Part shown: in pieces, positions 3,285 to 48,499 of the stretch
Layout: every line of letters starts with the position of its first letter
How positions within the stretch are numbered: the stretch's first letter is position 1
Assembly: GCF_007753265.1 (NCBI RefSeq)
Contig: NZ_CP036349.1
Coordinates: forward strand, 558,001 to 622,000
Direction of reading: 5' to 3'
Origin: Botrimarina mediterranea
Lineage (GTDB): Bacteria; Planctomycetota; Planctomycetia; Pirellulales; Lacipirellulaceae
Length of the DNA: 64,000 bases
Made by a program: the position numbers and the translations under genes
The notes under the pieces: model-generated
Database searches by the model: none
The model's input: only the letters and a program-made list of their open reading frames with translations
Told to the model about the DNA's origin: nothing

Positions 3285-3371
3285 GTGGGAGGCGTCTCCA
3301 GACGCCGATTACGCGCACCATGCCGATTCGGATTGGATGCCGTAATCGGGGTCTGGAGACCCCTCCTACAG
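3285..3371. repeat. Double-hairpin repeat, copy A
   Basis: Left arm hairpin GGCGTCT-CC-AGACGCC, about 36-base centre, right arm hairpin GGGGTCT-GG-AGACCCC, bounded by GTGGGAG and CTCCTACAG. The two arms are also inverted repeats of each other except for one C/G pair swapped in the right arm. It lies between the HIT gene start and the end of the next minus-strand gene. Confidence 0.85.
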
Positions 3372-3385
3372 TTGTCGGTGTTGGG

Positions 3386-3940
3386 TTATTTCTTCCGCAG
3401 TGTCGCGATCACTTCACGAAACCGCTTAGCTCCCGTTTCCACCGTCTTCTCCGGCCCGATCAGCTTGAAGAAATAAACGCCCTCGCCTTTCGTCTCGACG
3501 ATCGCGCCGACGAGGCGGTAGTCGGGGCGCTCGACCTTGGGGCCGAATGGGCCGCGCGGGCTGTCGAGGTAGGTTCCTGAGAGATCGACCAGCGTCGCCG
3601 GCATGCCGTTGATGTCGAGCTTCTCGGTCTTCGCGGCGGAGCGGTCGGCGCCCCCTTCGGTCCCTCGGAACTGGCCGACCCAGCGGGCGATGTTTGCCTG
3701 GACGCTGCCGCCCGCCGCCATGATCGTCAGCCGCGCGGCGCCTTCCGCCTTGCCGTCCGGCGCGGGGACGGCGAGCTCATGCTCAATGATCCGATTGGCG
3801 GGCTCGACCGACTTCCACCCGGCCGGCGCTGTGAAGATGAGCGCGCCGTCAGCGAGCGCGACCTCGCGCGGCGCCTTGTCATCGGCGACCGCCACGGAAG
3901 CAACAAGGCACAGCAGGGCGACACAAGCGGTTCGGATCAT
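3386..3940 (-). CDS. Secreted hypothetical protein
   Basis: 184 aa with a clear Sec signal peptide (MIRTACVALLCLVASVAVA, cleavage likely before DDKAP). The mature part is a mixed alpha/beta domain with GPKVERPDYRLVGAIVETKG and ends FREVIATLRKK. I do not recognise a named family; similar small secreted proteins with a repeated beta-sheet pattern are common in planctomycetes. It is followed 17 bases upstream by the end of the GYF-domain gene and could be cotranscribed with it. Probably periplasmic or extracellular. Confidence 0.8.
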   Translation of the reverse strand: MIRTACVALLCLVASVAVADDKAPREVALADGALIFTAPAGWKSVEPANRIIEHELAVPAPDGKAEGAARLTIMAAGGSVQANIARWVGQFRGTEGGADRSAAKTEKLDINGMPATLVDLSGTYLDSPRGPFGPKVERPDYRLVGAIVETKGEGVYFFKLIGPEKTVETGAKRFREVIATLRKK

Positions 3941-3957
3941 CGTGATATCTCGGTGGA

Positions 3958-4701
3958 CTAGATTGGTGAGTAACGACGGGCCTGTGGCGCCATTCTACGG
4001 GCCTGTGAAGCAGGCGGCGCAGTAGCTTCCTCGCTGCTGTTGGTCATCGTCGCGATGACCAACAGCCCGGTGAGCACCACGCACACCAACGCCAGCGCGA
4101 TCGTGATGATCCGGCGGCGTTTCGCCTGCTGCCGTTTTCGTAACGTATAGGCCGTCGATGGCGGGACGGGCCGAGAGGGCTTGATGGTGGGCGTCGGCGC
4201 CGGCGTCGGCGTTTCCGCCGGGGCCGGGGACGGGGCCGGGGACTGCGACGCGGTCGGGGCGGGCGGTGGGAGCGTGGCGCCGGGAGCCGGCAACGGGGGA
4301 GGCTCCGTTGGGGCGCCGGGGAGCGGCGCCGGGAGGTCGGCGTTGGGGGCGTCGGCACGCCGCCAGTCGGGCCAGCCGGTGCGCCACACCAGCGTGTCGG
4401 GTGTCACCCGGCCGGCGGCGATCCACTGGGCGAAGACCGCCGGCACGGTGGGGCCGTACTGCTCGCCGCCGGCACGGGCCATCCGCCACTCGACGGCGGG
4501 CTCGCTAGCGACCCCCGCGGGAGGGGGTGAGGTGGGCTGGGCCGGAACCGGCTCGGGGGGCGGCCCCCCCTCGGTCGGTGGGGCCGGCGGCGCCGGCACG
4601 TCGAAGTCCGCCCCGCAGGTGGGGCACTTCCCCCGTTTGCCCGCCAGCTTGTCTTTGACCCGTAGGGAGTGACCGTTGGGGCAGGCGCAAAGGATTGGCA
4701 T
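3958..4701 (-). CDS. GYF-like (DUF4339) domain membrane protein
   Basis: 247 aa from the ATG at 4701, which gives MPILCACPNGHSLRVKDK; the open frame further upstream to 4803 has no family character. Order of parts: a CPNGH...CPTCG zinc-ribbon-like start (about 6-30), a proline-rich spacer, a GYF-like domain with EQYGPTVPAVFAQWIAAG and WRTGWPDWRRA (about 75-120), a long Pro/Ala/Thr-rich linker and one C-terminal membrane span (ITIALALVCVVLTGLLVIA). Such proteins sit in the inner membrane with the GYF part probably binding proline-rich partners. Role unknown. Confidence 0.85.
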   Translation of the reverse strand: MPILCACPNGHSLRVKDKLAGKRGKCPTCGADFDVPAPPAPPTEGGPPPEPVPAQPTSPPPAGVASEPAVEWRMARAGGEQYGPTVPAVFAQWIAAGRVTPDTLVWRTGWPDWRRADAPNADLPAPLPGAPTEPPPLPAPGATLPPPAPTASQSPAPSPAPAETPTPAPTPTIKPSRPVPPSTAYTLRKRQQAKRRRIITIALALVCVVLTGLLVIATMTNSSEEATAPPASQARRMAPQARRYSPI

Positions 4702-4988
4702 AGCGTTGCGGCAGAATAGGGGCGTCGGTAGCTGTAGGTTATGTCGCTGGGGCGGTTTGTGCCGCCCCCGCTGTCGATTTTGCCGCCGGAAACCCCCGTA
4801 CAAAACTATCGCTTTTCAAGGTTCTTCCCTAGACTGCTACTTGCGCTACAGTCTCCCACCCCCCGGCGGCAACGGCGCCAAAGGGCTCGCTGTGGCGGCC
4901 TCGTCACGTTTCCCATGACACCCATTTGCTGATTGGCCCGGCCCCGCCGATGGTTCGGCAAAAGCCACCCAGAGTGAGTCAACGCAAC

Positions 4989-5621
4989 ATGAGCTCTCGA
5001 CCCAACGACGACTACGGCGACGACGCCCCCCTCGAAATCGCGATGGTCGGCGACCTGACCGACTCCGAGGCTGACCTCACCGACCGCCTGCTGGGCGTCG
5101 CCCCGGGCGAAGAGTGCACCATCTACTTCGACTCGCCGGGCGGCAGCCCCTACTGCGCGATGTCGCTGATGTCGCTCATCAAGCTCCGCCGCCTCAAGGC
5201 GACCGGCATCGTCACCGGTGAGTGCTCCAGCGCCACGCTCTGGCCCTTCGCCGCTTGCGAACGCCGGATCGTCACCCCCTACAGCGTGCTCTTGTTCCAC
5301 CCCATGCGGTGGCAGAGCGAAGAGAACGTCGGCCTCGCCGAGGCAGCCGAGTGGGCCCGCCACTTCGGCGACCTCGAACAACAGATGGACGAACTGCTCG
5401 CCCAGATGTTCGGCGTCGATAAGAAACTGATGGACGAGTGGATCAACCCCGGCAAGTACGTGACGGGCCGTGAGATCGCCGAAGCGGGGATCGCCGAGAT
5501 CGTCGAGTTCTCCGACTTGGCGAAGCTCTGCCCGACCGGCGGCCCCGACCTCCGCGTCGCCGACGCCGCGGCTGCCGCCCGGCAAAAGAGCCGGCGCCCC
5601 GCCGCCCGCCGCGGCAACTAA
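4989..5621 (+). CDS. ClpP-like serine protease homologue
   Basis: 210 aa from the ATG at 4989; a TTG at 4926 would add 21 residues with no family similarity. The ClpP/crotonase fold is visible: IYFDSPGGSPYCAMSL (oxyanion loop), nucleophile region TGECSSATL (S81), and LLFHPM (H104). The position where ClpP has its catalytic aspartate (the D of RD in ERD-type motifs) reads NPGKYVTGREIAEAG here, so the third triad residue seems absent. It may be a ClpR-like non-catalytic subunit or use another acid. No ClpX/ClpA gene is adjacent. Followed closely by a lipoprotein gene on the same strand. Confidence 0.85.
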   Translation: MSSRPNDDYGDDAPLEIAMVGDLTDSEADLTDRLLGVAPGEECTIYFDSPGGSPYCAMSLMSLIKLRRLKATGIVTGECSSATLWPFAACERRIVTPYSVLLFHPMRWQSEENVGLAEAAEWARHFGDLEQQMDELLAQMFGVDKKLMDEWINPGKYVTGREIAEAGIAEIVEFSDLAKLCPTGGPDLRVADAAAAARQKSRRPAARRGN

Positions 5622-5670
5622 GCGTCGCGGCGCCGAGCGGCAGCGTCACGAGCACAGGAAGGCTCCTCCG

Positions 5671-6927: not shown

Positions 6928-6966
6928 ACAAAGGGAGCCCTATAGCGTACTTTATTTTGCTGTAGC

Positions 6967-9513: not shown

Positions 9514-9519
9514 CACGTA

Positions 9520-31577: not shown

Positions 31578-31662
31578 GTGGGAGGGGTCTCCTGACCCCG
31601 ATTACGCGCTCCATTCCGTTTCGGAGTGGACACCGTCATCGGCGTCTGGAGACGCCTCCCAC
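31578..31662. repeat. Double-hairpin repeat, copy B
   Basis: Left arm GGGGTC-TCCT-GACCCC, right arm GGCGTCT-GG-AGACGCC, framed by GTGGGAG and CTCCCAC. Here the left arm carries the swapped C/G pair. It lies 35 bases before the start of the prenyltransferase-like gene, so it is in the 5' leader or promoter region. Confidence 0.85.
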
Positions 31663-31697
31663 CGTTCACCAATCTCACCCAATTGGAAATATCAGAT

Positions 31698-32825
31698 ATG
31701 AATCGATCCCTCTGCTCCTTGCTGATTGGCGTTGCGTTACTCGCTTCCACACCGTCAGCCTTTGCTCAGAAGGAAGCGGCTTCTTCGGAGCGAGCCGCGA
31801 AGGTTAAGGCGATCGCCGACGACGCCTTCACGTTTCTGCGCGAGCAGGGACAGGACAAGAGCGGGGCGTTCACGCCTCAGATGGGGTCGGGCATCACTTC
31901 GCTGGTGGTGACCGCGGCGCTGCGGCACGGCCGGCCCGTCGATGACCCGCTGGTGGCCGACGGCCTTAAGGCGATCGTGGCGAGCATCCAGGACGACGGC
32001 GGCATCTACGGCAACGGGCGCCTCAAGAACTACGAAACGTGCGTGGCGATCACGTGCCTCGCCGAGGCGAACAAGGCGGCGGGCGATGGCCGCTACGACG
32101 AAGCGCTCGAGAACGCCGAGGCGTTCGTGCGCGGCCTACAAATCGGCTCCGACGGCGCCGTGGGCCCCGAAGACCCCGAGTACGGCGGCGTCGGCTACAG
32201 CGGCCGCGAACGGCCCGACCTGTCGAACACGGCTTATCTCATCAGCGCCCTGCACTCCGTCGGCGCCGAAGGCGACGACCCGGCGATGCAGCGCGCGCTG
32301 GCGTTCGTGTCGCGTTGCCAGAACCTCGACGCGCAGTGGAACGACACCCCGTTCGCCGGCAAAGTAGACGACGGCGGCTTCTACTACGTGATCCCCACCG
32401 AAGCGGTCGATCCGTCCGAAGACGAGCGCTACACCGCCAACGGCGGGCTGCGGAGCTACGGCTCGATGACCTACTCGGGCTTCAAGAGCCTGGTCTACGC
32501 CGGCCTCAAGAAGGACGACCCCCGCGCGAAGGCGGCGCTCGACTGGATCGGCAAGCACTACACGCTTGAGAACAACCCCGGCCAAGGGGACGCCGGCCTC
32601 TACTACTACTACAACACGTTCGGCGTGGCGCTGGCGGCGTCGGATCTCGAAGAGATCACAACCGACGGCGGTGAGTCGCACAACTGGCGCGATGATCTGG
32701 TCGCCGAACTCGGTGAGCGGCAGAAGGAGAACGGATCGTGGGTGAGCACCAACCGACAGTGGTTCGAGAACGATCCGAATCTCTGCACGGCGTTCGCGCT
32801 ATTGGCGCTTTCGTATTGTGACTGA
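31698..32825 (+). CDS. Secreted prenyltransferase/terpene cyclase-like repeat protein
   Basis: 375 aa from the ATG at 31698. Signal peptide MNRSLCSLLIGVALLASTPS, cleavage near AFAQ. The mature part is an alpha/alpha barrel with repeats of the type GSGITSLVVTAALRHG, NYETCVAITCLAEANK, LSNTAYLISALHSVG, and TAFALLALSYC, as in squalene cyclase and prenyltransferase beta-subunits. The DXDD or metal motifs of those enzymes are not obvious, so it is likely a binding or structural barrel. Overlaps the next gene's start by eight bases. Confidence 0.88.
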   Translation: MNRSLCSLLIGVALLASTPSAFAQKEAASSERAAKVKAIADDAFTFLREQGQDKSGAFTPQMGSGITSLVVTAALRHGRPVDDPLVADGLKAIVASIQDDGGIYGNGRLKNYETCVAITCLAEANKAAGDGRYDEALENAEAFVRGLQIGSDGAVGPEDPEYGGVGYSGRERPDLSNTAYLISALHSVGAEGDDPAMQRALAFVSRCQNLDAQWNDTPFAGKVDDGGFYYVIPTEAVDPSEDERYTANGGLRSYGSMTYSGFKSLVYAGLKKDDPRAKAALDWIGKHYTLENNPGQGDAGLYYYYNTFGVALAASDLEEITTDGGESHNWRDDLVAELGERQKENGSWVSTNRQWFENDPNLCTAFALLALSYCD

Positions 32826-36877: not shown

Positions 36878-37237
36878 TCATTTTAGTGGCGGCAAGCCTT
36901 CTAACTCAAACACGGGCCGCACCTCGATTGTCCCCTTCTTTGCGGGCGGGATCTTGCTGGCAAAGTCGAGCGCTTCTTCCATGCTCTCGACATCGATGAC
37001 GTAGTAGCCGCCGAGTTGTTCGGTCGTCTCAGCGAACGGGCCGGTGGTGACGAGGCGCTCGCCACCACGCACTCGGACGCTGCGCGCCGTCGCCACGGGG
37101 TGCAGCGGCGACGCCGCCAGGAACTTGCCCTGCTCGGCAAGCTCATGGCACATCGCCTGCGACTCGGCCATGCAGGCGTCGCGTTCTTCTTCGGTCCAAG
37201 TCGATTCGGTACCGTAAACCAGCAGCATGAATTTCAT
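36878..37237 (-). CDS. YciI/DGPF family protein (paralogue 1)
   Basis: 119 aa. Ferredoxin-like alpha/beta barrel of the YciI-related DGPF group: MKFMLLVYGTESTWTEEE, VTTGPFAETTEQLGGYYVID, FASKIPPAKKGTIEVRPV. Catalytic function unproved; the group is strongly linked with ECF42 sigma factors. Last gene of the minus-strand set; preceded by repeat copy C. Confidence 0.93.
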   Translation of the reverse strand: MKFMLLVYGTESTWTEEERDACMAESQAMCHELAEQGKFLAASPLHPVATARSVRVRGGERLVTTGPFAETTEQLGGYYVIDVESMEEALDFASKIPPAKKGTIEVRPVFELEGLPPLK

Positions 37238-37283
37238 GGGAAGATCGATTGCTAGGACGCGTTAGAAAGAACGTGACTCTTCT

Positions 37284-37370
37284 GTGGGAGGCGTCTCCAG
37301 ACGCCGATTACGGTGTCCATGCCGGTAGAGCGTGGTGCGCGTCATCGGGGTCTGGAGGCGCCCCTCCCAC
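37284..37370. repeat. Double-hairpin repeat, copy C
   Basis: Left arm GGCGTCT-CC-AGACGCC, right arm GGGGTCTGGAGGCGCCCC (imperfect), framed by GTGGGAG and CTCCCAC. It sits between two cluster genes on the minus strand and would be in the transcript. Confidence 0.83.
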
Positions 37371-37416
37371 AGTTTATCAAAGGAGACCCCTCTCGCCGTT
37401 TATCAAACCCGTTTGC

Positions 37417-37917
37417 TCACCCGGCGAACGCCGCTTCGAGCGCCGCCTTGTCGAGTTTCTTCATCCCGAATAGCGCCGCCATCATCCGCGCGGTCTTGTC
37501 GGCGTCGGGGCTGGTCATCATCTCGGCGATGCACTTGGGCGCCACCTGCCACGACAGGCCGTACTTGTCCTTGAGCCAACCGCATTGCTGGGCGGCCGGA
37601 TCGCCTCCGGCGGAGAGCCTGTCCCAGAAGTGATCGATTTCTTCCTGCGTGTCGCACATGATCTGTAGCGAGACCGCCTCGTTGAACTTGAAGATCGGCC
37701 CGCCGTTGAGCGCCGTCATCTTCTGGCCGTCGAGCGCGAACTCGACCGTCAGCACCGTGCCGGGCTCTTTGCCGTGGAACTCGCGGCCGACCTCGCTGTA
37801 ACGTGAGACGGCGGTGATCTCGCTGTTGGGGAAGACCTGCGTGTAGAACGCCGCCGCCTCTTCGGCTTGGTTGTCGAACCACAGGCAGGGGACGATCGGG
37901 GTTTTGGTGATCGGCAT
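37417..37917 (-). CDS. VOC family protein (PhnB-like)
   Basis: 166 aa. PhnB/3-demethylubiquinone-methyltransferase-like VOC fold: PCLWFDNQAEEAAAFYTQVF, LTVEFALDGQKMTALNGGP, and HFWDRLSAGGD, AQQCGWLKDKYGLSWQVAP. Members occur with DGPF genes in ECF42 clusters. Metal ligands not certain. 168 bp and a repeat copy separate it from the DUF899 gene. Confidence 0.92.
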   Translation of the reverse strand: MPITKTPIVPCLWFDNQAEEAAAFYTQVFPNSEITAVSRYSEVGREFHGKEPGTVLTVEFALDGQKMTALNGGPIFKFNEAVSLQIMCDTQEEIDHFWDRLSAGGDPAAQQCGWLKDKYGLSWQVAPKCIAEMMTSPDADKTARMMAALFGMKKLDKAALEAAFAG

Positions 37918-37972
37918 GGTCGTCGGTACGTGGTTGAGAATCGGTTCAGGGGCTACCCGCGGCGTCCTCTAG

Positions 37973-38057
37973 GTGGGAGGCGTCTCCAGACGCCGATGAC
38001 GCGCCCCATTGTCGAACGGCATGGACACCGTAGTCGGGGTCGGGAGACCCCTCCCAC
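37973..38057. repeat. Double-hairpin repeat, copy D
   Basis: Left arm GGCGTCT-CC-AGACGCC; right arm GGGGTC-GGGA-GACCCC. Outer GTGGGAG/CTCCCAC. Lies between the VOC and DUF899 genes of the ECF42 cluster. Confidence 0.85.
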
Positions 38058-38085
38058 AGTTGATCCCACAGTTGAGAACCAAGGC

Positions 38086-38823
38086 TCATCCGTAGGTTGG
38101 CTTTTGCGGCCAGCCTGCAGGCGAGTCCTCGAAGTCTTCTTGCCGGCCGTAGGGGGTTTGGTCGAGCAAGCGGTACGAGTCGGTGAGGCCTTCTACGCCG
38201 CGGGCGTAGGTCGAGTTGGTGTGGTAGACCTCGCCGTCGAGATCGAAGAAGACGCTCAGACCGTGCGACTCACCCTGCATGAACCAGGGCTCTTCGCCTT
38301 TACGTGAGTCGAGTTCCTTCTCGCTGCGGTAGTTGTATTCCAGCGGCACGACGGTCCGATCGAGCGACACGTGGAATTCGTAGTTGAAGGGACTGCCGAA
38401 CGACGAGTACCACGGCAGCGTCCAACCATTCAGATCGCGGTAGGCCTCGAGCTTCGCCAGCGGCGCCCGCGAGACGAGGGCCATCGTCGTGTCACGCTTA
38501 GCGAGCATCGACAAGTCGCCGAGCCCGTTGACGAAGCCCGTGCAGCCGGGGCAGCCCTTCTCCCACTCGGGATCGAACATGAAGTGATAGATAATCAGCT
38601 GCCGCCGCCCCGCCAACAGGTCGAGCAGCGTCGCCTCGCCCTCGGGCCCGTCGAATCGATAGTCCTTCTCGATCTTCACCATCGGCAGCCGGCGACGCTG
38701 GGCGTTGACACGGTCGTACTGCGCGGTGAGCGCCTTCTCGGCCTCGAGTAACTCGCGGCGGCTTGCCAGCCACTCGGCGCGCGTGGCGATGGGCGGATGC
38801 GGGATGGTGGCTGTCGTGCTCAT
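38086..38823 (-). CDS. DUF899 family thioredoxin-like protein
   Basis: 245 aa from the ATG at 38823. Thioredoxin-fold DUF899: [19 protein letters not shown], then [15 protein letters not shown] with a CPGC pair, [38 protein letters not shown], and [19 protein letters not shown] redox role is likely. Starts four bases after the stop of the upstream small membrane gene, so cotranscribed. Confidence 0.93.
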
Positions 38824-38827
38824 GTTC

Positions 38828-39121
38828 TTACGTTGAGGTGGAATGTTTGGCAGGGGAAGCGGTGCGGCGTAGGCGTCGCCGAATTGCGGCAACGACAAGC
38901 CACGTTAGAGCGAGGAGGCACACGCCAATGGCGCCGGTCCTCAGGTACGCCGCCGCCGTGAGCGACATGCCCAGCCCTGTCAGCACGGCGACGTAGGCCA
39001 CAACGCACGCGGGGCACTTCGGCATGACGGCCAGCGCCACCGTCGGTGCCAACCACGCGACGCCGCTGACCCAGCGACGGCGCGTCGAGTTCTTCCGGCA
39101 TTGGCACGGGCAAGCACGCAT
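38828..39121 (-). CDS. Small membrane protein with a CPAC motif
   Basis: 97 aa. Cys-rich N-terminus [10 protein letters not shown], then two membrane spans (about 18-50 and 62-80) with [14 protein letters not shown] in the first. Arg-rich C-terminus. The Cys-Pro-Ala-Cys inside a span is seen in small MerC/MerT-like or disulfide proteins; family not assigned. Between YciI and DUF899 genes with 4 and 15 bp spacing. Confidence 0.75.
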
Positions 39122-39136
39122 CGTCGGCTCCGGTGA

Positions 39137-39565
39137 TTAGGCGCCCATCGCGTCGGTCTTCGCGCGGATCACGTCTTCTTGTTCGCGCAGTTCTTCGGTC
39201 ATCGCGTCGCCGAAGTCGTCCATCTCGAAGACGGGTCGGACCTCGATCTCCGAGTCTTCGATCATCGGGTTGGGGCACTGCTTAACCCAGTCGATCGCCT
39301 CTTCCATCGACGCGACCTTCCACATCCAGAACCCGGCGACGAGCTCCTTCGTCTCGGCGAACGGACCGTCCGTGACGACGCGGTCCTTGCCGCTGAACAG
39401 CACCCGCGCCCCTTCGGAGCTGGGCTTGAGCCCCTCGCCGGCGAGCATCACGCCCGCCTCGACGAGCCGCTCGTTGAACGCGCCCATTGCGGTGAGCAAC
39501 TCCGTGCTCGGCATCTCGCCCGCTTCGGATGATTTGGAGGCTTTGACCAAGACCATGACCCGCAT
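39137..39565 (-). CDS. YciI/DGPF family protein (paralogue 2)
   Basis: 142 aa. MRVMVLVKASKSSEAG start, [20 protein letters not shown], and IDWVKQCPNPMIEDSEIEVRPV. Slightly longer than paralogue 1, with a C-terminal helix after the DGPF core (ELREQEDVIRAKTDAMGA). AGGAGT lies ten bases upstream of the ATG. Confidence 0.93.
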   Translation of the reverse strand: MRVMVLVKASKSSEAGEMPSTELLTAMGAFNERLVEAGVMLAGEGLKPSSEGARVLFSGKDRVVTDGPFAETKELVAGFWMWKVASMEEAIDWVKQCPNPMIEDSEIEVRPVFEMDDFGDAMTEELREQEDVIRAKTDAMGA

Positions 39566-39603
39566 GGTGTGGACTCCTGGTTACAGGGATAGAAGGTGAA
39601 AAT

Positions 39604-39688
39604 GTGGGAGGCGTCTCCAGACGCCGATTACGGTCTCTTGGCCGTATCGGCGTGGTGCGCGTAATCGGCGTCTGGAGACGCCTCCCAC
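39604..39688. repeat. Double-hairpin repeat, copy E
   Basis: Both arms of C type: GGCGTCT-CC-AGACGCC left, GGCGTCT-GG-AGACGCC right; the full 29-base arms pair nearly perfectly. Between the second and third YciI genes. Confidence 0.87.
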
Positions 39689-39711
39689 AAACCGTTTGAA
39701 CGCGAGCCGGC

Positions 39712-40050
39712 TTAGATCTCTTCGATCGCCCGGACCTCGACGGTCCCGACCTTTGCCGACGGGAAGCGGCTGGCGATGTCGATCGCTTCTTCGATCGTGT
39801 CCACATCGACCAGCACGTAGCCGCCGAGTTGTTCTTTTGTTTCAGCGAATGGCCCGTCGCTCACGACCCGCAGGCCATCGCGGACGCGCAGGCTCTTGGC
39901 CGTCTCGACGGGGTAGAGCGGCGTGCCACTGACGAACTGCCCCTTCGCATGGATCTCGTTACACAGCGCCACCGCGTTGCGTTGTTCGACTTTCAGATCG
40001 TCGTCGCTGAACGCGTCTTCGGCGTTGTACATGAGAAGCAAGAACTTCAT
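39712..40050 (-). CDS. YciI/DGPF family protein (paralogue 3)
   Basis: 112 aa. [61 protein letters not shown] overlaps the TGA of the upstream YciI gene (40047-40050, ATGA), so translation is coupled. Confidence 0.94.
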
Positions 40051-40481
40051 CGCTCCACCTCCGCCGCTTGTGGCGCCGCTTGCGGCTTAGCCTGCGTAGC
40101 AAACGTTTTATTGCGTTCGGCAACCAGAGCGTTGATCGACTCATCGGCGGGCCGGATCTCGAAGGGCCCCATCCGTGCGCCGGGGTGATTCGACATCAGC
40201 GAGATCGCGTGGTTCATGTCGCGGGCTTCGAGAAGCAGGATGCCGCCGAGGTGCTCCTTGGTCTCGGCGTAGGGCCCGTCGCAGACCGTCACCTTGCCCG
40301 CTTCGGGGCGGAGGGTGACGGCGCTCGTGGCGCCCTCGAGCGCCTCGCCGCCGAGGAAGTGCCCGCCGCGACGCAGCTCGTCGTCGTAGGCGAAGCACTC
40401 CTCCATCATCGCCAGCTGCTGGGACTCGGGGATCGCGGCGAAGGTCGCCTCGTCGAGATACCCCATACAGACGAACTTCAT
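40047..40481 (-). CDS. YciI/DGPF family protein (paralogue 4)
   Basis: 144 aa from the ATG at 40481. [20 protein letters not shown] is a distinct N-terminal type, followed by [20 protein letters not shown] and [19 protein letters not shown]; a Gln/Ala tail ends the protein. Note DGPY in place of DGPF. 47 bases after the upstream VOC gene. Confidence 0.93.
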
Positions 40482-40528
40482 CGGGAACACTCCTTGTGGG
40501 TGAGTGATGAGAGAACGAGGCGGCTTGC

Positions 40529-40999
40529 TCAGCTCTGTTGGAAAGCAGAGTTCATGCCCGCCATCATCTCTTCCGGCGTCAGGTCCTTTATGTGCGTCGC
40601 GAGCGCCCATTGATGGCCGAACGGATCGACGACAACCGCATACCGATCGCCCCAGAACATGTCCTGCGGCGGCACGAGCACCGTGGCGCCGGCGTCGGTC
40701 GCCTGCTTCACGGCGGCGTCGCAGTCGGCGACGTAACGGTGCAGGCCCACCGGCGTGCCGCCGAGCGTCTTGGCCGATCGTGACGCCCCTTCGCAGTACT
40801 CGGGGAAGTCGTCGGCGAGCATGAAGAGCGAATCGCCGATCGTCATTTCGGCGTGCATCAGCCGCCCGTCGGGCCCCGGCATCCGGCAGTGCTCAACGGC
40901 GCCGAAGGCCGCCTTGTAAAAGTCGATCGCCGCGCTGGCGTGGTTGAGAACAAGGTGCGGAGTGATGCCCGAGCGGCCCAGAGGGATGGGTTGAGTCAT
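40529..40999 (-). CDS. VOC family protein (glyoxalase-like)
   Basis: 156 aa from the ATG at 40999. [77 protein letters not shown]: a PhnB-like VOC with the DPFGH metal/active-site end. 101 bases after the DUF1579 gene. A short direct repeat (GTTGGAGGTTGGAAGTTG) lies in the leader. Confidence 0.92.
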
Positions 41000-41100
41000 G
41001 GTATTTGGAAGTTGGAGGTTGGAAGTTGTAGGGTGGGTCGTGACCCACCGCGCCAATCGATCGGTGAGGAAGTGGGTAGTGATCGAATCGATCCATGGTC

Positions 41101-41682
41101 TCACTTGCGGCGGTACTCGATCATCATCCCTTTGGTCCACTTGCCGTCTTTGCCCTGCACGGACGACGTGAACACCTTGTGGTCGGGGCCTTTCAGCTCA
41201 AGCACTTCTTCGAAATTGCTCAGCTCGCCGGGGTTCATTGGGCAGTGGCCCTTGGTGCGGAGCGTCAGCTTCTTCTTCGACGCGTCGAGTTCGCCCTCGT
41301 AGACCCATAGGTAGCCCGAAACGGAATCGACCCACGTGCCGACGTACTTGCCCTTCTCGGGGTCGTAGCCGAGGGTCTGAACGCCGGTGAACGGCTGCCC
41401 CGCGAACTCGCCCTGGTTCTCGGCGACGGTCCAGAACTCGCCGATCTGGCGGACGTGCTCGGACCCCTGGGAGGTCGTCTCCTGGCCTTCCATGTAGACA
41501 TGGACCTCGCTCGACCAGTCGCCGACGAGCTGCTCGAGCCAACGGTGCTCGGCCTGAGGCTCGGGCATCGCCATTTCTTCTTGTTGAGCCATCGCGGGCG
41601 CCGTGAGGGCGAACGCCGTGAGGGCGAACGCCGTGAGGGCGAACACGGTGAGGAGGCCGAAAGCAGTCGTGAAACGTCTCAT
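41101..41682 (-). CDS. Secreted DUF1579 family protein
   Basis: 193 aa from the ATG at 41682. Signal peptide with the sequence ALTAF repeated (FALTAFALTAFALTAPAMAQ), coded by three exact 15-bp units at 41600-41644. Mature domain DUF1579: HRWLEQLVGDWSSEVHVYME, GYDPEKGKYVGTWVDS, LRTKGHCPMNPGELSN. First gene of the cluster and preceded by the ECF42-type promoter. Confidence 0.9.
   Translation of the reverse strand: MRRFTTAFGLLTVFALTAFALTAFALTAPAMAQQEEMAMPEPQAEHRWLEQLVGDWSSEVHVYMEGQETTSQGSEHVRQIGEFWTVAENQGEFAGQPFTGVQTLGYDPEKGKYVGTWVDSVSGYLWVYEGELDASKKKLTLRTKGHCPMNPGELSNFEEVLELKGPDHKVFTSSVQGKDGKWTKGMMIEYRRK
41600..41644. repeat. Three 15-bp tandem repeats in a signal-peptide region
   Basis: GCCGTGAGGGCGAAC three times in a row, then a partial copy. 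On the coding (minus) strand each unit encodes five hydrophobic residues (ALTAF type). Copy number changes would lengthen or shorten the signal peptide in frame. Confidence 0.85.
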
Positions 41683-41748
41683 GATTTCTCTCCAATAGTG
41701 AGGAAAAGTGCAGATTACGGGCGACAAATTTGCGTCGAACACCCAGTT

Positions 41749-41775
41749 GTCGAATGGGTCCCATGCAAATCGACA
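41749..41775 (-). promoter_or_regulatory. Predicted ECF42-dependent promoter
   Basis: Minus strand: -35 TGTCGA (41770-41775), 17-base spacer, -10 CGAC (41749-41752). This matches the ECF42 consensus as I recall it (TGTCGA and CGA/TC). The expected start is about 60 bases before the DUF1579 ATG. It lies downstream of the ECF42 gene itself. Confidence 0.65.
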
Positions 41776-41852
41776 GGGCCCGGATAAGTTTTTCGAGAAA
41801 AGTCCAAAGCGTCGAAAAAGCCTGCGGAACCCCAGCCTCTCTTGAAAGAAAA

Positions 41853-41929
41853 GGCGAGCCCCCGATGTCAATCGGGGGTGGGAAGCAAGTACCCGGGTTC
41901 CACCCACGATTAACATCGTGGGCTCGCCA
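41853..41929. terminator. Double hairpin after the ECF42 gene
   Basis: GGCGAGCCCCCGATGTCA-ATCGGGGG, a short linker, then CCCACGATTAACATCGTGGG-CTCGCC. The GGCGAGCCC/GGGCTCGCC ends also pair with each other. The unit ends right at the sigma gene's stop and can terminate or attenuate its transcript. The core CGATTAACATCG recurs at 6-15. Confidence 0.6.
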
Positions 41930-41930
41930 G

Positions 41931-43193
41931 TCACTTTGAAGCTTCTGCCAACTCGTCGATCCGCCGTTGCAAGAACCGCCGCTCCGGCGCCTGCTTCGCC
42001 AACGCGAGCGCTTGGCGGTACGCGGCCGCGGCTTCGCCATGGCGACCTAATCGACGCAGCAAGTCCGCCCGTGCGGCGTGCGTCAGGTGGTAGTCCACCA
42101 AGTCGCCGCGCTCGACCAGGGAATCGATGATCGCCAGGCCCTGCTCGGCGCCGTCACGCATCGCGACGGCGACGGCGCGGTTCAGCTCAACGATCGGCAG
42201 CGGCTCGCCACGCAGCAGCACGTCGTACAGGGCGACGATCTGCGACCAGTCGGTCGCGGCAGCGCTCGGCGCCGCGGCGTGCACTGCGGAGATCGCCGCC
42301 TGTATCGTGTACGCGCCGAAGCGCCGTGTCGCCAACGCGCGTTCGACGAGTTGGTTTCCCTCTTCGATAAGGGCGGCGTCCCATTGCGAGCGGTCTTGGT
42401 CTTCGAGCAGCACGAGGTCGCCGTTGTCGTCCGTCCGCGCCGCGTGCCGCGACTCGTGCAGCAGCATCAACGCCACGAGGCCGATCACTTCGGGATCGGG
42501 CAGCAACTCCAGCAGCAGTCGGCCGAGACGGATGGCTTCGTGCGACAGCTCCTGGCGGACCGCCGAGTCGCCGTGCGACGCCGAATAACCCTCATTGAAC
42601 ACGAGGTAGATCACGCTCAGCACCGAGTCGATCCGGGCGGGGAGCTCGGCGAGCGTTGGCGCCTCGTAGGGAATCTTCTCGTCGCGGATCTTCGCCTTGC
42701 CACGGACGATCCGCTGCGCGATCGTCGGCGTGGTGGTGAGGAACGCGCTGGCGACTTCCTCGGTGCGCAGCCCGCACACTTCTCGGAGCGTCAGCGCGAC
42801 GCGCGTCTCGGGCGTCAACGCCGGGTGGCAGCAAGTGAAAACCAGCCGCAACTGGTCGTCGTTGAAGCGGGCCTCGTCGAGTTCTTCGGGGTTGAAGCTC
42901 AATTGCTCGAGCTGCTGCGCGATCTCCCCGGCGGCCGCGTCGAAGCGTGTGCGGCGGCGGATCGTGTCGATCGCTTTGAACCGCCCCGTCGAGACGAGCC
43001 ACGCCCGGGGGTTCTTCGGCACGCCCTCGGCGGCCCACTGCGTCATGGCCGACGCGAACGCCTCGTGCATCGCGTCCTCGGCGAGGTCGAAGTCGCCGAG
43101 CAAGCGGATCAGCGTCGCGAAGACCCGCCGCGACTCACGCCGATAGACATCGGCGACCGCGGCTTCGAGGGCGGCGCTGGGGGGGAGGGACAT
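41931..43193 (-). CDS. ECF42 RNA polymerase sigma factor
   Basis: 420 aa from the ATG at 43193. Sigma region 2 (ESRRVFATLIRLLGDFDLAE, DAMHEAFASAMTQWAAEGVP, NPRAWLVSTGRFKAIDTIRR), region 4 (LRLVFTCCHPALTPETRVAL, TLREVCGLRTEEVASAFLTT), then the roughly 220-residue helical, TPR-like extension of the ECF42 (DUF6596) group: VLSVIYLVFNEGYSASHG, ALATRRFGAYTIQAAISAVH, LPIVELNRAVAVAMRDG. ECF42 lacks an anti-sigma factor; the C-terminal extension is needed for its activity. Its neighbours include four DGPF genes, the hallmark target. Confidence 0.95.
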   Translation of the reverse strand: MSLPPSAALEAAVADVYRRESRRVFATLIRLLGDFDLAEDAMHEAFASAMTQWAAEGVPKNPRAWLVSTGRFKAIDTIRRRTRFDAAAGEIAQQLEQLSFNPEELDEARFNDDQLRLVFTCCHPALTPETRVALTLREVCGLRTEEVASAFLTTTPTIAQRIVRGKAKIRDEKIPYEAPTLAELPARIDSVLSVIYLVFNEGYSASHGDSAVRQELSHEAIRLGRLLLELLPDPEVIGLVALMLLHESRHAARTDDNGDLVLLEDQDRSQWDAALIEEGNQLVERALATRRFGAYTIQAAISAVHAAAPSAAATDWSQIVALYDVLLRGEPLPIVELNRAVAVAMRDGAEQGLAIIDSLVERGDLVDYHLTHAARADLLRRLGRHGEAAAAYRQALALAKQAPERRFLQRRIDELAEASK

Positions 43194-43318
43194 GGCGGCC
43201 AGACGCGGGGCGGTTTGGATTGCCCCGAGTTTAAGCCCCCGGCAGCCGCGTCGCCACGAGGGCGAGAGGCTAGATCGATGCCAGCAGTCTGTCACTCTGT
43301 GGTCAGCGGTCACCTCTA

Positions 43319-43401
43319 TAGGAGGCGTCTCTGACGCCGATTACGCGCACCACACCGTGTTCGGCCAGGAGACCGTAATCGGCGTCGGAGACGCCTCCTG
43401 C
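43319..43401. repeat. Double-hairpin repeat, copy F
   Basis: Shorter arm loops: GGCGTC-TCT-GACGCC and GGCGTC-GGA-GACGCC. Between the ECF42 start and the end of the LTD/CotH gene. Confidence 0.83.
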
Positions 43402-43411
43402 AATGAAACTG

Positions 43412-46400
43412 CTAACCAGCCACCGTCTTTCGCCACGCGGCTCTAACGCCAGCCATCGATTCAGGGCGTTCAGCCGTTGTGGCTTCCTCACTCTTCAACG
43501 GCGTAATGTCGGAGCGTTCGGCGTCTCGTGCAGTCATCGCGCTGAGTAGTAGCAGTGCTTGATCGCTCGCCGATTCACTGATTGCAAACGCTTGACGCGT
43601 GACGGGCGCGAAGCGACTGCGAATCGGCGTCGCAGTAATGTTTATTAGCGGCGTGACATCGTCAAAAGTATCCGGCCCTGCTTCGACTGCGAACGCTTCG
43701 TCCGTCGCTGGCGTCACAGGTTCGCCGGTCGCGACTGCGGCTTGCTTGACGAGCGCGACGGTCGGCGGCGTCAGGTTGTCGCGCCAGACGGTGTAGTCGG
43801 CGGCGTCGATGCGGCCGTCGCCGTTGCCGTCGGCGCCCATGAAGGGCGTCACGGTCGCGCCGTAGCTGGTGCGCCACACGAGGTGGTCGGCCTGTTCGAC
43901 GACGCCGTTGCGGTCGTAATCGCCCGGCAGGTCGCCGCTCGCTCCGGGGCTGCCGCCGATCGCAAAGCTCGCACGCCAGTTGGCGGGGTCGTCGTACGGA
44001 TCGTCCGCGACCAGCGCCGGGTCGGCGGCGTCCATGTCGAAAGGCCCAATGTATTCCAGCGAAGGCCCGTCACCGTCCGGCGCCGCGGGCCAGCCTGGGA
44101 GGTTGCTATCGCCGTAGACGAACGACTGGATCAACTCACCAACCGGGCCCCGCAGCGAGATGGTCTCGCCCTCGTTTGCGAGGCTTCCCGAGAACACGCC
44201 CAGCGCCACGTTCGTCACGCCAGGGTAAGCAGCAGCAAACGCGGATTGATCTGCAACGACGACGACCCGCGCGCCCGGCGCAAGCGAACCGCCGGTGAAG
44301 TCGTAGCCCCCTGCTGAAAAGCCTTCCAGCCGGAAGCCGGTGAGGTCGATCGTCTCGGCGCCGAAGTTCAGCAGCTCGATGAACTCGGTCGGATCACCCG
44401 AACCGGGCGGGTTGTACATCACCTCGACAACACGCAACGCCGGCGGATCGGTGAGCGTGAACGTCGCGTCAATCAACGGGCTCCAATCGGCGCCGTTCTT
44501 TACGCGCGCGAGCACTCGCAGTGGCGTCGTGACATCGACAACGATCGGGCCAGCGCCACTCAGAGCCGAAGGGTTCGTCGCGCCGCCGGCGAGCCTTGGG
44601 TCACTGCCGTCGAGGGTGTAGTAAATCTGCGACCCCCCCGGCGAGCCCGAGGGGAGCGAAAGCGTGAGGTCGTAGCCCCCCGTCACGGCGCCGCCGTACT
44701 GGCTCAGCATCGGAGCCGCGAGCGGCACGAGCCAGCCGGCATTCGCAAACTGCGTCAACACCGTCTCGGTGCGGTTAACGAAGAAGTCGGCGATGACGGC
44801 GTTGTTCACCGCCAAGAAGTCGGCCTGCGTGTACGGGTCATTCTCATTGCGGTTGTCGCCCCACCGCGCGGACTCGCCGAGGATCGCCTCGGTGATCTCA
44901 TCGATGCGTGCCTGATAGACCGACTGCGCCGCCGTGTTCGTCAGCACGCCGCCGTTCTGCATCAGCGCCTGCACGCGGTCGGCGAACCGAAGGCGGTATT
45001 CGGTGTTGCCGATGAGGTTCTTGTGGATCGACGTGGGCGCCTCGAAGTCGTCCTTCGTGGTGAGATCGACAAACTGGGTGAACGCGTCTCCGTTGTCGGT
45101 CGTCGGGAAGGCGTGCTCCTGGTCCCAGGCGTGGAAGCGCCAAAGGCCGCCGTTGCGATCGCGCGTGGCGTACCAGTTGTTGTGCGACCAGTCCGCGGCG
45201 TTACCGCCGTAATAGTGCACGATCATGTAGTCGATGTACTGATCGACATCGAGTTGCTGCGTGACGGCGTTGTAGGCCGTGCTACTCGCCGGGTTGTTCT
45301 GCACCGCTTGAGTCGCGTCGAGAAGCGCCGAGAACCGGTCTTCCGCGGCGACGCCGCCCGAGACCCACGTGAACTCGTGGTTCACGTCTTGGTTGGCGTG
45401 CTTGACGACGTCGTAGTCGTCCTTGTCGCCGCCGTAGTACGCGGCCGCAAACGAGTCGTCGGGTCGTTCGTGGAGATTGTAGAGGCCCCAGTACATGCCG
45501 TTGAGGTAGAGATGGACGTACTCGCCATGCGGCGCGCCTTGACCCGACGCTAGGTTCTGGAGGTCGGAGATCGCTTGGTCGGTGACGAATCGAGCGTAGT
45601 CGCGCTGGATCGGGTTGGCGTGGTGCCACGCGTAGTTGAACATCGCGTCGAGGATCAGCGTGTCGAACTCGGTGGTCGCTCCCTCGCCGAAGACCGCGTC
45701 GGCGAAGACTGGGTAGTTCAACTCTGTTGGCCCGTAGGGAAATTTGAACTTCACCTGCATCGACAACTTGTCCGAGTTCCAACGCAGCGTGCTGGAATGG
45801 CCCTGAGTCTCGACGCCCACGTCGGTCTGGAACTGGTCGCCGGCGGAGTTGGGATCGAAGTACTCGAACGACGCGCCGCGTTCGTTCGACGATCCGTGGA
45901 TGTAAATCCCCTGCGGCTGCGGAGCGACGTTGGAACCGGCGGGGAACGTGCCGGGCTGGGGCGTCCCGCCGAAGAGGTCGTCCCAGTTCATCACCAGCGA
46001 AACGGTGGGGATCGACTTCAGGGCATCCTTCAGTGCCGCCTGGTTGCCGTTGACGACATCGGGGTCCATCTCCCAGTCGGACTCGTCATCGAGGTTGTAG
46101 CCCGACGCGTTGTCGGCGTCCCCCTTGTCGTGCCCCCACGTCGCGTAGGGCTGAGTGACATCCGCCGCGCTCTGCTGGAGGACGTCGTCGAGGAAGAGGT
46201 AGGTCTGCGTATCGACGTTCGTTGAGACCCATCCCCCCTTGTAAGCGATGGCGCGTAGCGTGGTCGTGGAAGCGATGTTGATCGGCCCGGTGTAGAGCAC
46301 GCCATTGTTGGGCGTCGGCATACTCCCGTCGGTCGTGTAGCGGATCGACGCGCTGGCCGTAGCGGTGGTGATCTCGACCGGGAACGCCGCGTCGAAGAAG

Positions 46401-47608
46401 CCGCGATCGACCGAGAACTTGGTGTCGGCGACGAAGCCTTCCGCGACGACGCCGTTCACCGCTCCGGGGCTGGGGGTTGGCAGGTAGCCGATGGCCGTGG
46501 CGCCCGTCGCGCGGGTCGTCTTCAGCACCGGCTCGACTAGCAGGTCTTGGCGGTTGGCGTTGTTCGACGAAGAACTCGTGCTGTTCACCACGTGGAACGC
46601 CAACACGTTCGTCCCTTCGATCAGCGACGGCAGGTAAGCCGACAGGTCGAACGAAGCGATATCGAGCGTCTCACCGAGGCGATTCGCGGCGCCTGACGAA
46701 GAGCTCGACCCCATCTGGTTGCCGGCGGAAGAGTCCCACTGCGGCTGCGGCCGGATGAAGTCTTCGGCGAAGTTCGCTCGGGCGATCTCCCGGCCGTTGA
46801 GGTAGGCAATGAAACCGTCGTCGAAGCGCAGGTCGAGCTCCAGCGACGTGAGCTGCGCGGCGCCTTCGACATCGAAATTGAACCGTACGTAAGCCGTCGT
46901 CTGCGTAGTGGACATTTCGCCGGCGGTAAGCGTCCGACCGATGAACGGCGCCAGATTGACGCCGTCCGAGTTGCGGTCGAAGCCGACCGAGCGCGTCCCC
47001 GAGAGCCACGCGGCATCGTTGAAGCCAGGTTCTCGCCAGTGGTCGTCGATCGCGGCGTTCTCGCCCGTCGGCACGTGCGCGCGCAGCGGCGTGCCGACGC
47101 CGATGAGCGTCTCTTGCGGCTGCGTGGTCGGGAGCACGCCGACGCCATAGGCGGCGTCGGGTTCTTGGGCCGGGTAATCGAGATAGGCGTCCACGACCGT
47201 CACGCCGTTGGGCGCCACGAGCAGCACGTCCTCGCCGGCGTTATTGAGCGAGAAGTTGGTGTGCAGTTCGCCGCTCGCTAGGTCCTTACCCGAGGCGAAC
47301 ACCACCAGCCGCTCACCGGCCGCCAGTGTGACGCCGGCGGGGATCTGCCACTTGGCGGGCGTTACCGCGTCGTCGGACAGGTAGTAGCCGCCGAGGTCGA
47401 CGACGCTGGCGCCGGTGTTAGCGATCTCGATCCAGTCCTGCCGCTGGCCGTCGAGGTCGCGGATGCCGCTTTCGTTGTCGGCGACGAACTCCGATAGCAC
47501 CACCGCCATCAGGTGACGGGGTTCGAGCGTCTCGACTCGCGGCTGAAAGCTGCGGAGAGCGGATCGTCGCGGCGCCTTGATGAGCCGCGGGGAGCAAGGC
47601 AGTCGCAT
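43412..47608 (-). CDS. Giant secreted CotH/lamin-tail protein with dockerin
   Basis: 1398 aa from the ATG at 47608. N-terminus has the planctomycete LEPRHLMA sorting-type motif (RVETLEPRHLMA). Then lamin tail domain (LTD) 1 (VVLSEFVADNESGIRDLDGQ), a galactose-binding-like sandwich (WREPGFNDAAWLSGTRSVGF), a chitobiase-type beta-sandwich (IRYTTDGSMPTPNNG), a CotH kinase-like domain (about 530-890: EYVHLYLNGMYWGLYNLHER), a second LTD (LRVVEVMYNPPGSGDPTEFI), and a dockerin type I pair (DYDRNGVVEQADHLVWR, DGNGDGRIDAADYTVWRDNL). Likely cell surface or matrix protein. Confidence 0.95.
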   Translation of the reverse strand: MRLPCSPRLIKAPRRSALRSFQPRVETLEPRHLMAVVLSEFVADNESGIRDLDGQRQDWIEIANTGASVVDLGGYYLSDDAVTPAKWQIPAGVTLAAGERLVVFASGKDLASGELHTNFSLNNAGEDVLLVAPNGVTVVDAYLDYPAQEPDAAYGVGVLPTTQPQETLIGVGTPLRAHVPTGENAAIDDHWREPGFNDAAWLSGTRSVGFDRNSDGVNLAPFIGRTLTAGEMSTTQTTAYVRFNFDVEGAAQLTSLELDLRFDDGFIAYLNGREIARANFAEDFIRPQPQWDSSAGNQMGSSSSSGAANRLGETLDIASFDLSAYLPSLIEGTNVLAFHVVNSTSSSSNNANRQDLLVEPVLKTTRATGATAIGYLPTPSPGAVNGVVAEGFVADTKFSVDRGFFDAAFPVEITTATASASIRYTTDGSMPTPNNGVLYTGPINIASTTTLRAIAYKGGWVSTNVDTQTYLFLDDVLQQSAADVTQPYATWGHDKGDADNASGYNLDDESDWEMDPDVVNGNQAALKDALKSIPTVSLVMNWDDLFGGTPQPGTFPAGSNVAPQPQGIYIHGSSNERGASFEYFDPNSAGDQFQTDVGVETQGHSSTLRWNSDKLSMQVKFKFPYGPTELNYPVFADAVFGEGATTEFDTLILDAMFNYAWHHANPIQRDYARFVTDQAISDLQNLASGQGAPHGEYVHLYLNGMYWGLYNLHERPDDSFAAAYYGGDKDDYDVVKHANQDVNHEFTWVSGGVAAEDRFSALLDATQAVQNNPASSTAYNAVTQQLDVDQYIDYMIVHYYGGNAADWSHNNWYATRDRNGGLWRFHAWDQEHAFPTTDNGDAFTQFVDLTTKDDFEAPTSIHKNLIGNTEYRLRFADRVQALMQNGGVLTNTAAQSVYQARIDEITEAILGESARWGDNRNENDPYTQADFLAVNNAVIADFFVNRTETVLTQFANAGWLVPLAAPMLSQYGGAVTGGYDLTLSLPSGSPGGSQIYYTLDGSDPRLAGGATNPSALSGAGPIVVDVTTPLRVLARVKNGADWSPLIDATFTLTDPPALRVVEVMYNPPGSGDPTEFIELLNFGAETIDLTGFRLEGFSAGGYDFTGGSLAPGARVVVVADQSAFAAAYPGVTNVALGVFSGSLANEGETISLRGPVGELIQSFVYGDSNLPGWPAAPDGDGPSLEYIGPFDMDAADPALVADDPYDDPANWRASFAIGGSPGASGDLPGDYDRNGVVEQADHLVWRTSYGATVTPFMGADGNGDGRIDAADYTVWRDNLTPPTVALVKQAAVATGEPVTPATDEAFAVEAGPDTFDDVTPLINITATPIRSRFAPVTRQAFAISESASDQALLLLSAMTARDAERSDITPLKSEEATTAERPESMAGVRAAWRKTVAG

Positions 47609-47785
47609 TGCGAGAAGAGCGTCGGTGGGTGCGGAAGAGGACTCGGGGCAGACGGCCCCGGCGCGCCAGGTAGCCTTGGAGAACAAGGCTCCGATTCCAA
47701 TCTAATCGCCCGCTCCGGCCGTGACCCGCCCCCCGCCGCCCCGTTTTGAGTCGCTCTATCCATTTAGCCCTCAGTCCCTATCTAT

Positions 47786-47814
47786 TTAGCCCCCGGTCAA
47801 TGACCGGGGGCTAA
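47786..47814. terminator. TTAGCCCCCGGTCA palindrome, copy with A centre
   Basis: 29-base palindrome beginning 20 bases after the CMD stop (minus strand); a degenerate half copy lies at about 47764-47776. Consistent with a terminator for the CMD transcript. Confidence 0.6.
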
Positions 47815-47833
47815 ATAGACTTTTCCCATTCGT

Positions 47834-48298
47834 TCAATGCGTCGCGCCCTCCGGTTGGTAATCCCCCGGCGTCTTCCGCGAGCCGATGCTGATGCGGTTC
47901 CAGGTGTTGATTGCCGCGATTACCCACAGAAGGTCCTCGAGTTCTTGAGCGTCGAAATGTTCGTGGGCGCGCTCGATTGCCGCTTCGGGCGCCGGCTTGT
48001 CGGCGAGACGCGTCAGCTCTTCGGCGAGTAGAAGTCCCGCCCGTTCGCGCTCGCTGTAGTACGGGCACTCACGCCAGGCCGGCAGGCTGTAGAGCCGCTG
48101 CTCGGTCTCGCCTGCCGCGCGGGCGTCCTTCCAGTGCATGTCGATGCAGAACGCGCAGCCGTTGATCTGCGAGACACGTTGTTTGATCAGCTCACGCAGC
48201 GAGAGCTCGATGCGGCCCTTGCCGATCGCGCGCTCGAGGCTGAGCATGCCGCGGTAGGCGTCGCTGGGCGCCGGGGCGGTTGTGGTGGTGGCGCTCAT
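47834..48298 (-). CDS. Carboxymuconolactone decarboxylase family protein (AhpD-like)
   Basis: 154 aa from the ATG at 48298, with AAGGAG nine bases upstream. LRELIKQRVSQINGCAFCID, MHWKDARAAGETEQRLYSLP, then ERERAGLLLAEELTRL. The CXXC (CAFC) and following His match AhpD-like peroxidatic chemistry. This is the standard partner of ECF41 sigma factors, and the gene has an exact ECF41 promoter in front. Likely protects against an oxidant or electrophile. Confidence 0.95.
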   Translation of the reverse strand: MSATTTTAPAPSDAYRGMLSLERAIGKGRIELSLRELIKQRVSQINGCAFCIDMHWKDARAAGETEQRLYSLPAWRECPYYSERERAGLLLAEELTRLADKPAPEAAIERAHEHFDAQELEDLLWVIAAINTWNRISIGSRKTPGDYQPEGATH

Positions 48299-48364
48299 CT
48301 CTCTTCTCCTTGTTCCATCGGTTGATGTCCTCTCACGGGAAAAGTCCCGCATTTCAACAACAAG

Positions 48365-48391
48365 GACGATCGAGCGGCCCGGCCTGTGACA
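48365..48391 (-). promoter_or_regulatory. Predicted ECF41-dependent promoter
   Basis: Minus strand: TGTCACA (48385-48391), exactly 16 bases, CGTC (48365-48368). This is the published-type ECF41 consensus, 67 bases before the CMD start codon. Seven plus four exact bases at the correct spacing, in front of the expected target gene. Confidence 0.9.
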
Positions 48392-48415
48392 GGCGGGAGA
48401 AAAATCCATCGGATT

Positions 48416-48499
48416 GTAGGAGGCGTCTCCAGACGCCGATTTCGCGCACCATGCCATTGCGGAATGGATACCGTAATCGGCGTCGGAGACGCCTCCTAC
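48416..48499. repeat. Double-hairpin repeat, copy G
   Basis: Left arm GGCGTCT-CC-AGACGCC, right arm GGCGTC-GGA-GACGCC, outer GTAGGAG/CTCCTAC. Between the ECF41 gene's stop and the CMD promoter. Confidence 0.85.

Follow-up and report, generated by a model that had tools for sequence, protein, structure and literature searches.

The 64,000-nucleotide stretch of DNA analysed here, referred to as the window, spans C1:558001-622000 of the 5.87-Mb single-contig genome of Botrimarina mediterranea (G000), and it contains seven copies of a double-hairpin element. Each copy is very probably a REPIN, a pair of inverted repetitive extragenic palindromic (REP) sequences, whose arms would be read as single-stranded hairpins by a REP-associated tyrosine transposase (RAYT) that would spread the pair. 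The REPs each have a GTGG or GTAG head, a stem of 6-7 bp and a loop of TCC or TCCN, and between them lies a core of about 41 nt, itself able to fold into a third small hairpin. The features that place the element among REPINs are the GT(A/G)G head joined to a GC-rich palindrome, the inverted REPs with heads facing outwards and a short spacer, the high extragenic copy number and the same REP flanking a RAYT gene in the window genome; that gene, for its part, matches a curated REP-associated model and occurs once, in a fixed position by synteny.

The scale of the family is apparent from GTRGGAGGSGTCTCC, which occurs 154+150 times in the genome (control 0), and from the full palindromic frame GTRGGAGG-N60..78-CCTCCYAC, the strict pattern, which gives 133 matches against 0 for the reversed-pattern control. 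Arms, flanks and context were counted in 115 full copies extracted from the genome, with some 18 strict matches lying outside this set; the extracted copies are 83-90 nt long, 58 of them being 85 nt and 26 being 86 nt. With a home-made codon-usage gene finder, 95 of the 115 are clear of any predicted gene, 14 run over a gene edge by at most 60 nt and 6 lie wholly within the 5' part of a longest-start open reading frame (ORF), the true start of which may be further downstream. Outside both ends there is a near-invariant T, which precedes the head on 222 of the 230 element sides, and the preceding dinucleotide is CT on 100 sides, TT on 95 and AT on 25, with a CT background of 5.7%. No chromosomal strand bias of the REPINs is visible across the four quarters of the genome.

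What, then, could mobilise such an element? The suggested link to a RAYT/TnpA-REP-like transposase is borne out by one of the Y1 genes of the genome, which number five by PF01797, with two weak ones added by a search with P0001.

RAYT gene (P0001, 168 aa), C1:939718-940221, between leuS and glgC.

The protein matches NCBIfam NF047646 at 114.6 bits (cut-off 80) as well as Pfam Y1_Tnp, and by profile it matches the solved TnpA-REP 4er8 with an E value of 1.5e-8. The HxH and Tyr132 are invariant across five orthologues, all of which end LDREWWP. At 21.4 bits it lies below the IS200 equivalog cut-off of 55, and there is one high-identity copy in the genome, such that by the cut-off and multi-copy criteria it is not an IS200/IS605 transposon. 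The gene fills a unit of 564 bp bounded by the REPIN arm type, in which the 28 identical bases at each end include a whole REPIN arm plus GATTACG. The unit carries GTAGGAGGCGTCTCCGACGCCGATTACG at both ends; two differing bases follow the 28-base identity, after which the repeat resumes through CACCAT. The ATG of the RAYT lies in one end of the unit, and the last codons and TAA lie in the other. No second armed RAYT copy was found among the Y1 loci read in this genome. A different Y1 gene, at C1:1304099-1304461 (L102), has its own inverted ends, of GTAGGTCAGGCTGTGCCTGACGCCCC type when read by eye, and is apparently another REPtron/TIRtron type within the same genome.

RAYT and REPINs are found in relatives too. 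In a survey of 43 genomes of the family (Lacipirellulaceae), the covariance model of the element has matches in 18 (under stricter filters and among the matches listed, at most 105 per genome). The RAYT is found at leuS-glgC in five genomes, namely G000, G007 (Botrimarina colliarenosi Pla108), G009, G003 and G034, the synteny resting on Pfam for the G000 neighbours and on blastp to the other four. The units in G007, G009 and G034 measure 566, 566 and 565 bp and differ from one another in the version of the arm that they carry; the arms of the G009 unit differ by one loop base, while the G034 ORF starts with GTG and its start region, on reading, differs. In all four genomes where the RAYT has a GTRGGAGG arm on both sides there are many REPINs (133 in G000, 80 in G007, 42 in G009 and 99 in G034). 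Ten further genomes of the family have at most 1.5 kb between the leuS end and glgC, with no RAYT-like stretch, the junction in G039 giving one RAYT match at chance level (E 0.09), and an empty junction is accompanied by no REPIN in G008, G001 and G024 by the strict pattern and in G039 and G010 by the model.

Among the 230 arms, 76 are exactly GGCGTCTCCAGACGCC, 75 are GGGGTCTCCAGACCCC and 36 are the short GGCGTCTCCGACGCC. The third stem pair toggles between C-G and G-C, and it does so with compensation inside each arm. In an alignment of 60 copies (56 obtained by taking every second one of the 111 extracted at 83-86 nt, and the four window copies not among these), pairing within arms holds in 97.8% of cells (shuffled mean 91.3), the covariation is 0.140 (shuffled 0.045) and 46 cells are compensated (shuffled 19.2), values that none of 500 shuffles reaches, although kinship among the sequences can by itself put scores above all shuffles. 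Between the arms the corresponding figures are 93.9% (shuffled 92.0), 0.064 (0.042) and 28 (19.2), reached by 2, 1 and 2 of the 500 shuffles, respectively, with 19 of 60 and 22 of 59 between-arm cells left unpaired in the two columns that toggle. The stronger covariation is that within the arms.

The combinations in which the arms occur tell a related story. Eighty-six elements have two clean long arms, of which 24 are C/C, 26 are G/G and 36 are mixed (Fisher p = 0.195), so that the C/G types of the two long arms are near-independent. When both variable stem pairs are scored, the 115 copies of G000 include 70 like-armed and 36 unlike-armed elements, with 54.9 like expected if the arms were independent, and the excess is mostly due to 18 REPINs with the short arm type on both sides. 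On the same scoring, G007 has 20 like and 5 unlike among 30 (12.1 like expected) and G009 has 15 like and 3 unlike among 18 (11.4 expected). With G028, 34 matches less two overlapping duplicates leave 32 elements, of which none is like-armed, 24 are unlike and 8 are not scorable, where about 10.6 like-armed elements would be expected under independence. Taken with the stronger covariation within than between arms, these like and unlike counts therefore indicate that the arms are preserved as separate hairpins, with a like/unlike balance that differs between lineages. In G028 (L307-L326), all 24 scorable elements consist of a GGCGTC arm and an unlike arm, the latter being GGCCTC in 21 of them.

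Most likely the RAYT binds each arm as a single-stranded hairpin, and it would then cut at the head before copying or moving the REP pair to new, mostly intergenic sites. In doing so it would read the head, the loop and most of the stem, and at the third stem pair it would sense pairing, not identity. Since only the pairing would be read at this position, C-G could flip to G-C separately in each arm, giving rise to both like- and unlike-armed REPINs. Recognition, cleavage and mobilisation by the RAYT are steps that we infer.

A number of observations weigh against this mechanism. Like arms exceed expectation in G000, G007 and G009, partly via short-arm lineages, two of the five within-arm measures (double-change pairs and further pair types) are not above the shuffles, and CT precedes the head on only 43% of sides, with TT on 41%. 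Against the keeping of the arms as separate hairpins, DNA folding predicts a single long hairpin for each strand, as the minimum-energy structure in all nine copies tested (the six window copies other than copy C, listed below, plus three others), at -25 to -35 kcal/mol for the three mixed-arm copies versus -36 to -43 kcal/mol for the rest. REPINs with exactly the short arm type of the RAYT are not measurably younger, and the idea that they are the youngest was rejected (core differences 4.27 versus 5.20, p = 0.39). An empty junction nevertheless occurs with REPINs in G013 (26), G028 (111), G033 (19) and G042 (21) by the strict pattern and in G020 (20) by the model, and no closely both-armed Y1 gene was found among the PF01797/P0001 genes of these genomes, G028 having one Y1 gene with a single head about 350 bp away. 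Conversely, the RAYT of G003 has one decayed arm, and the genome contains 0 strict REPINs. Across genomes, RAYT and REPINs therefore match only in part. As a separate observation on G003, six IS200-like Y1 genes, each of 149.6 bits, are located on its C1 (L246, L255, L265, L274 and two further places); they are probably one multi-copy true insertion sequence, in a genome that has no strict REPIN of the GTRGGAGG kind.

Could the arms be kept perfect by some other route? One unlikely route is hairpin-templated repair (quasi-palindrome correction), in which template switching during replication perfects the arms without selection or a transposase. Short hairpins are established substrates for template switching, and at the toggling pair just 7 of the 230 arms fail to pair; such repair should, however, also homogenise the pair of arms through the long inverted repeat, whereas the long C/G arms are near-independent (p = 0.195) and in G028 all 24 scorable elements are unlike-armed. 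Neither the copy number nor the matching ends of the RAYT are explained by repair, even if the like-arm excess in G000, G007 and G009 leaves room for some of it.

It is improbable that the copies are kept as transcript hairpins, that is as an mRNA stabiliser, a terminator or a regulator, for instance of the ECF42 operon in the window. The long palindrome reads on both strands, the spread is genome-wide, the same ends occur on the RAYT unit and there is no Rfam match at gathering scores within the window, all of which count against an RNA-level element in spite of its strong folding (with DNA parameters) and of the few copies that lie between divergent genes (9 of 115, versus 98 among the 554 gaps that measure 20 nt or more). 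A secondary effect of the copies on transcripts may occur. It is very improbable that selection acts on a long cruciform or bacterial interspersed mosaic element-like site, bound for example by gyrase or nucleoid proteins, with the local hairpins as a by-product, since covariation is stronger within the arms and unlike arms are seen in 36 of the 86 long-armed elements and are the sole scorable form in G028, although nine of nine copies tested have the long hairpin as their lowest-energy fold and between-arm pairing is slightly above the shuffles. The earlier claim that local hairpins, and not the long cruciform, are kept is thus right about the local arms (covariation 0.140 versus 0.064; 46 versus 28 compensated cells) but went too far in leaving no real place for the long hairpin, given these folds and the 93.9% between-arm pairing.

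If each copy is a REPIN spread by the RAYT, a further question concerns where the REPIN itself came from, and here the core is informative. On the start side of the RAYT, the 12 bases that follow the arm and GATTACG inwards are CGCACCATGCCG, which the REPINs match at 10.8 of 12 positions on average, while the highest score among 924 control windows from the interior of the RAYT unit is 7.6 of 12. At least 10 of the 12 start-region bases are kept by 104 of the 115 copies, and the ATG itself by 56. The stop-side match is weak, at 5.7 of 12, and is equalled or beaten by 17 of the 924 control windows. A start-side match of at least 10 of 12 is found in 12 of 30 REPINs in G007 and 0 of 18 in G009, and the start-like core pattern occurs in three of the 43 genomes (73 times in G000, 21 in G007 and once in G034). 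At the level of sequence, then, the start-side core is shared with the RAYT in two Botrimarina genomes, G000 and G007. With the balance slightly against it, the REPINs of the G000/Botrimarina colliarenosi lineage may be internal-deletion derivatives of the RAYT unit. On such a deletion reading the unit (564-566 bp) would be a REPIN stretched by an ORF, with the start codon in one half and the last codons and stop in the other; the alternative is that a REPIN captured the RAYT ORF.

No partial RAYT deletion derivatives, with arms 95-900 bp apart, were present in the G000 stretches examined, the six units found with this spacing being the RAYT unit, a 372-bp interrupted REPIN and four REPINs with an extra head or neighbour. 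The interrupted REPIN (C1:172927-173298, L004) is divided in two by another palindromic repeat, about 290 bp long, copies of which occur at 91-93% identity in at least four further loci (L073, L077/L094, L035, L176/L097) and which constitutes a second, unrelated miniature repeat family. The evolution of REPINs is called unknown in the available part of one study, where one suggested origin is the ends of an IS200-like ancestor (Bertels and Rainey, PMC3116915). The embedding of the RAYT start codon in a REPIN half makes that idea testable here, and a deletion origin, if true, would provide a direct sequence link for the proposed, unproven RAYT/IS200-like ancestry of REPINs. A search of the open-access literature, with subscription papers outside its scope, yielded no account of REPINs in Botrimarina or of a RAYT start region within a REPIN core.

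The seven copies in the window are as follows, in window positions, with the strand being the orientation that places the RAYT-start-like half of the core first.

Copy A, 3285..3369, + strand: REPIN with a C-type arm (hairpin 3291-3306) and a G-type arm (3348-3363).
Copy B, 31578..31662, + strand: REPIN with a G-type arm (31584-31599) and a C-type arm (31641-31656).
Copy C, 37284..37370, - strand: REPIN with a C-type arm (37290-37305) and an imperfect G-type arm (37347-37364) with a 2-nt insertion.
Copy D, 37973..38057, + strand: REPIN with a C-type arm (37979-37994) and a G-type arm (38036-38051).
Copy E, 39604..39688, - strand: C-type/C-type REPIN with arms at 39610-39625 and 39667-39682.
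Copy F, 43319..43401, + strand: REPIN with short C-type arms (43324-43338 and 43381-43395) and decayed outer heads.
Copy G, 48416..48499, + strand: REPIN with a long C-type arm (48422-48437) and a short C-type arm (48479-48493).

All seven are present on direct reading where the first-pass annotation had placed them, apart from the end of copy A, the strict end of which is 3369, the next two bases (AG) being flank. Unlike arms, which had been ascribed to A, B and D, are found there and in C too, making four such copies; each arm pairs with itself in A, B and D, while the G-type arm of C is imperfect through its two-base insertion. The description of all copies as intergenic is nearly correct, the exceptions being B, which overlaps the 5' end of the longest-start ORF 31626-32825 by 37 nt, and G, which overlaps that of ORF 47834-48457 by 42 nt. 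The decayed outer heads of copy F (TAGG.../...CTGC) put it outside the strict-pattern matches; it is included in the 60-copy alignment and absent from the 115 extracted copies.

Several of these copies lie around an extracytoplasmic function (ECF) sigma factor gene with DUF6596, at window 41934-43313, which we take to be ECF42-like. Beside it, within window 36878-43313, are four YCII genes together with DUF899, 3-dmu-9_3-mt and DUF1579 genes. The ECF neighbourhood that had been proposed is hence real (ECF sigma/DUF6596, four YCII, DUF899), but a specific link of the element to it is not borne out. Over the first 2.78 Mb of the genome, covered in full (68 copies), there is a mean of 1.57 strict copies per 64 kb with a variance/mean of 1.13, and the densest sliding 64 kb contains 8. 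The window has 6 strict copies, as does the overlapping fixed bin at 576-640 kb, the highest of 44 bins, and is thus a local high point within a near-Poisson spread. Given these values the link to the ECF genes appears to be incidental; the analysis gave no evidence that the element acts specifically in the ECF42 operon or at the RNA level, and its copies are spread over the whole genome. Within the same 2.78 Mb, the longest stretch without a strict REPIN measures 472 kb, at C1 ~2.19-2.67 Mb.

The element is a real feature and of a known kind, the REPIN. Its value is to add, from a planctomycete family, a REPIN-RAYT system with copies numerous enough to separate within-arm compensation from arm-to-arm pairing. 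Beyond the clean statistics, interest attaches to the unlike arms of G028, which offer a natural case for testing why heterodimers of REPs persist, and to a possible RAYT relic in the core. The less usual aspect is the RAYT start codon within a REPIN half, which, with the start region kept in 104 of the 115 copies, suggests that these REPINs may be trimmed RAYT units.

In comparison with known systems, the HUH/Y1 enzyme, hairpin ends and compact unit are shared with IS200/IS605 elements such as IS608 (in part from the excerpts available of PMC8266576), unlike which the RAYT scores 21.4 against the cut-off of 55 bits and occupies one leuS-glgC site. With the REPINs of Pseudomonas fluorescens SBW25, as far as the accessible text of PMC3116915 describes them, the element shares the inverted REP doublet, a spacer, many extragenic copies and a matched RAYT adjoining the same REP, and it differs in its planctomycete host, its core of about 41 nt and the RAYT start codon inside a REPIN half. 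REPs without a tnpA-REP gene are noted in the part of PMC6006769 available. The Stenotrophomonas GTAG REPs and RAYTs, from the portions of PMC2817692, PMC3686654 and PMC8266576 consulted, share the GT(A/G)G head and a GC-rich palindrome interrupted by 2-4 bases; the Botrimarina element has another stem sequence and a third stem pair that toggles within one genome. With the S. maltophilia enzyme, cleavage is affected or almost eliminated by a mid-stem mismatch, while complementing blocks of stem bases is not drastic (excerpts of PMC8266576), and the REPs flanking orthologous RAYTs vary yet remain palindromic and inverted (excerpts of PMC2817692). The sections of PMC3733652 available report GTAG/CGTC REPs in Planctomycetes, mark in a figure legend transposase genes overlapped by flanking repeats, suggest that REP heterodimers are possibly shielded from enzymatic removal and describe GTAG HH heterodimers, head-outward dimers with differing stems or loops as here (GTAG-24 of P. 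aeruginosa; hybrids of S. maltophilia). Unlike in those heterodimers, one genome here mixes like and unlike arms, and G028 has only unlike ones among the scorable elements. With heterodimers and palindrome-keeping REPs both on record, the compensated and unlike arms of the Botrimarina element are therefore instances of known behaviour.

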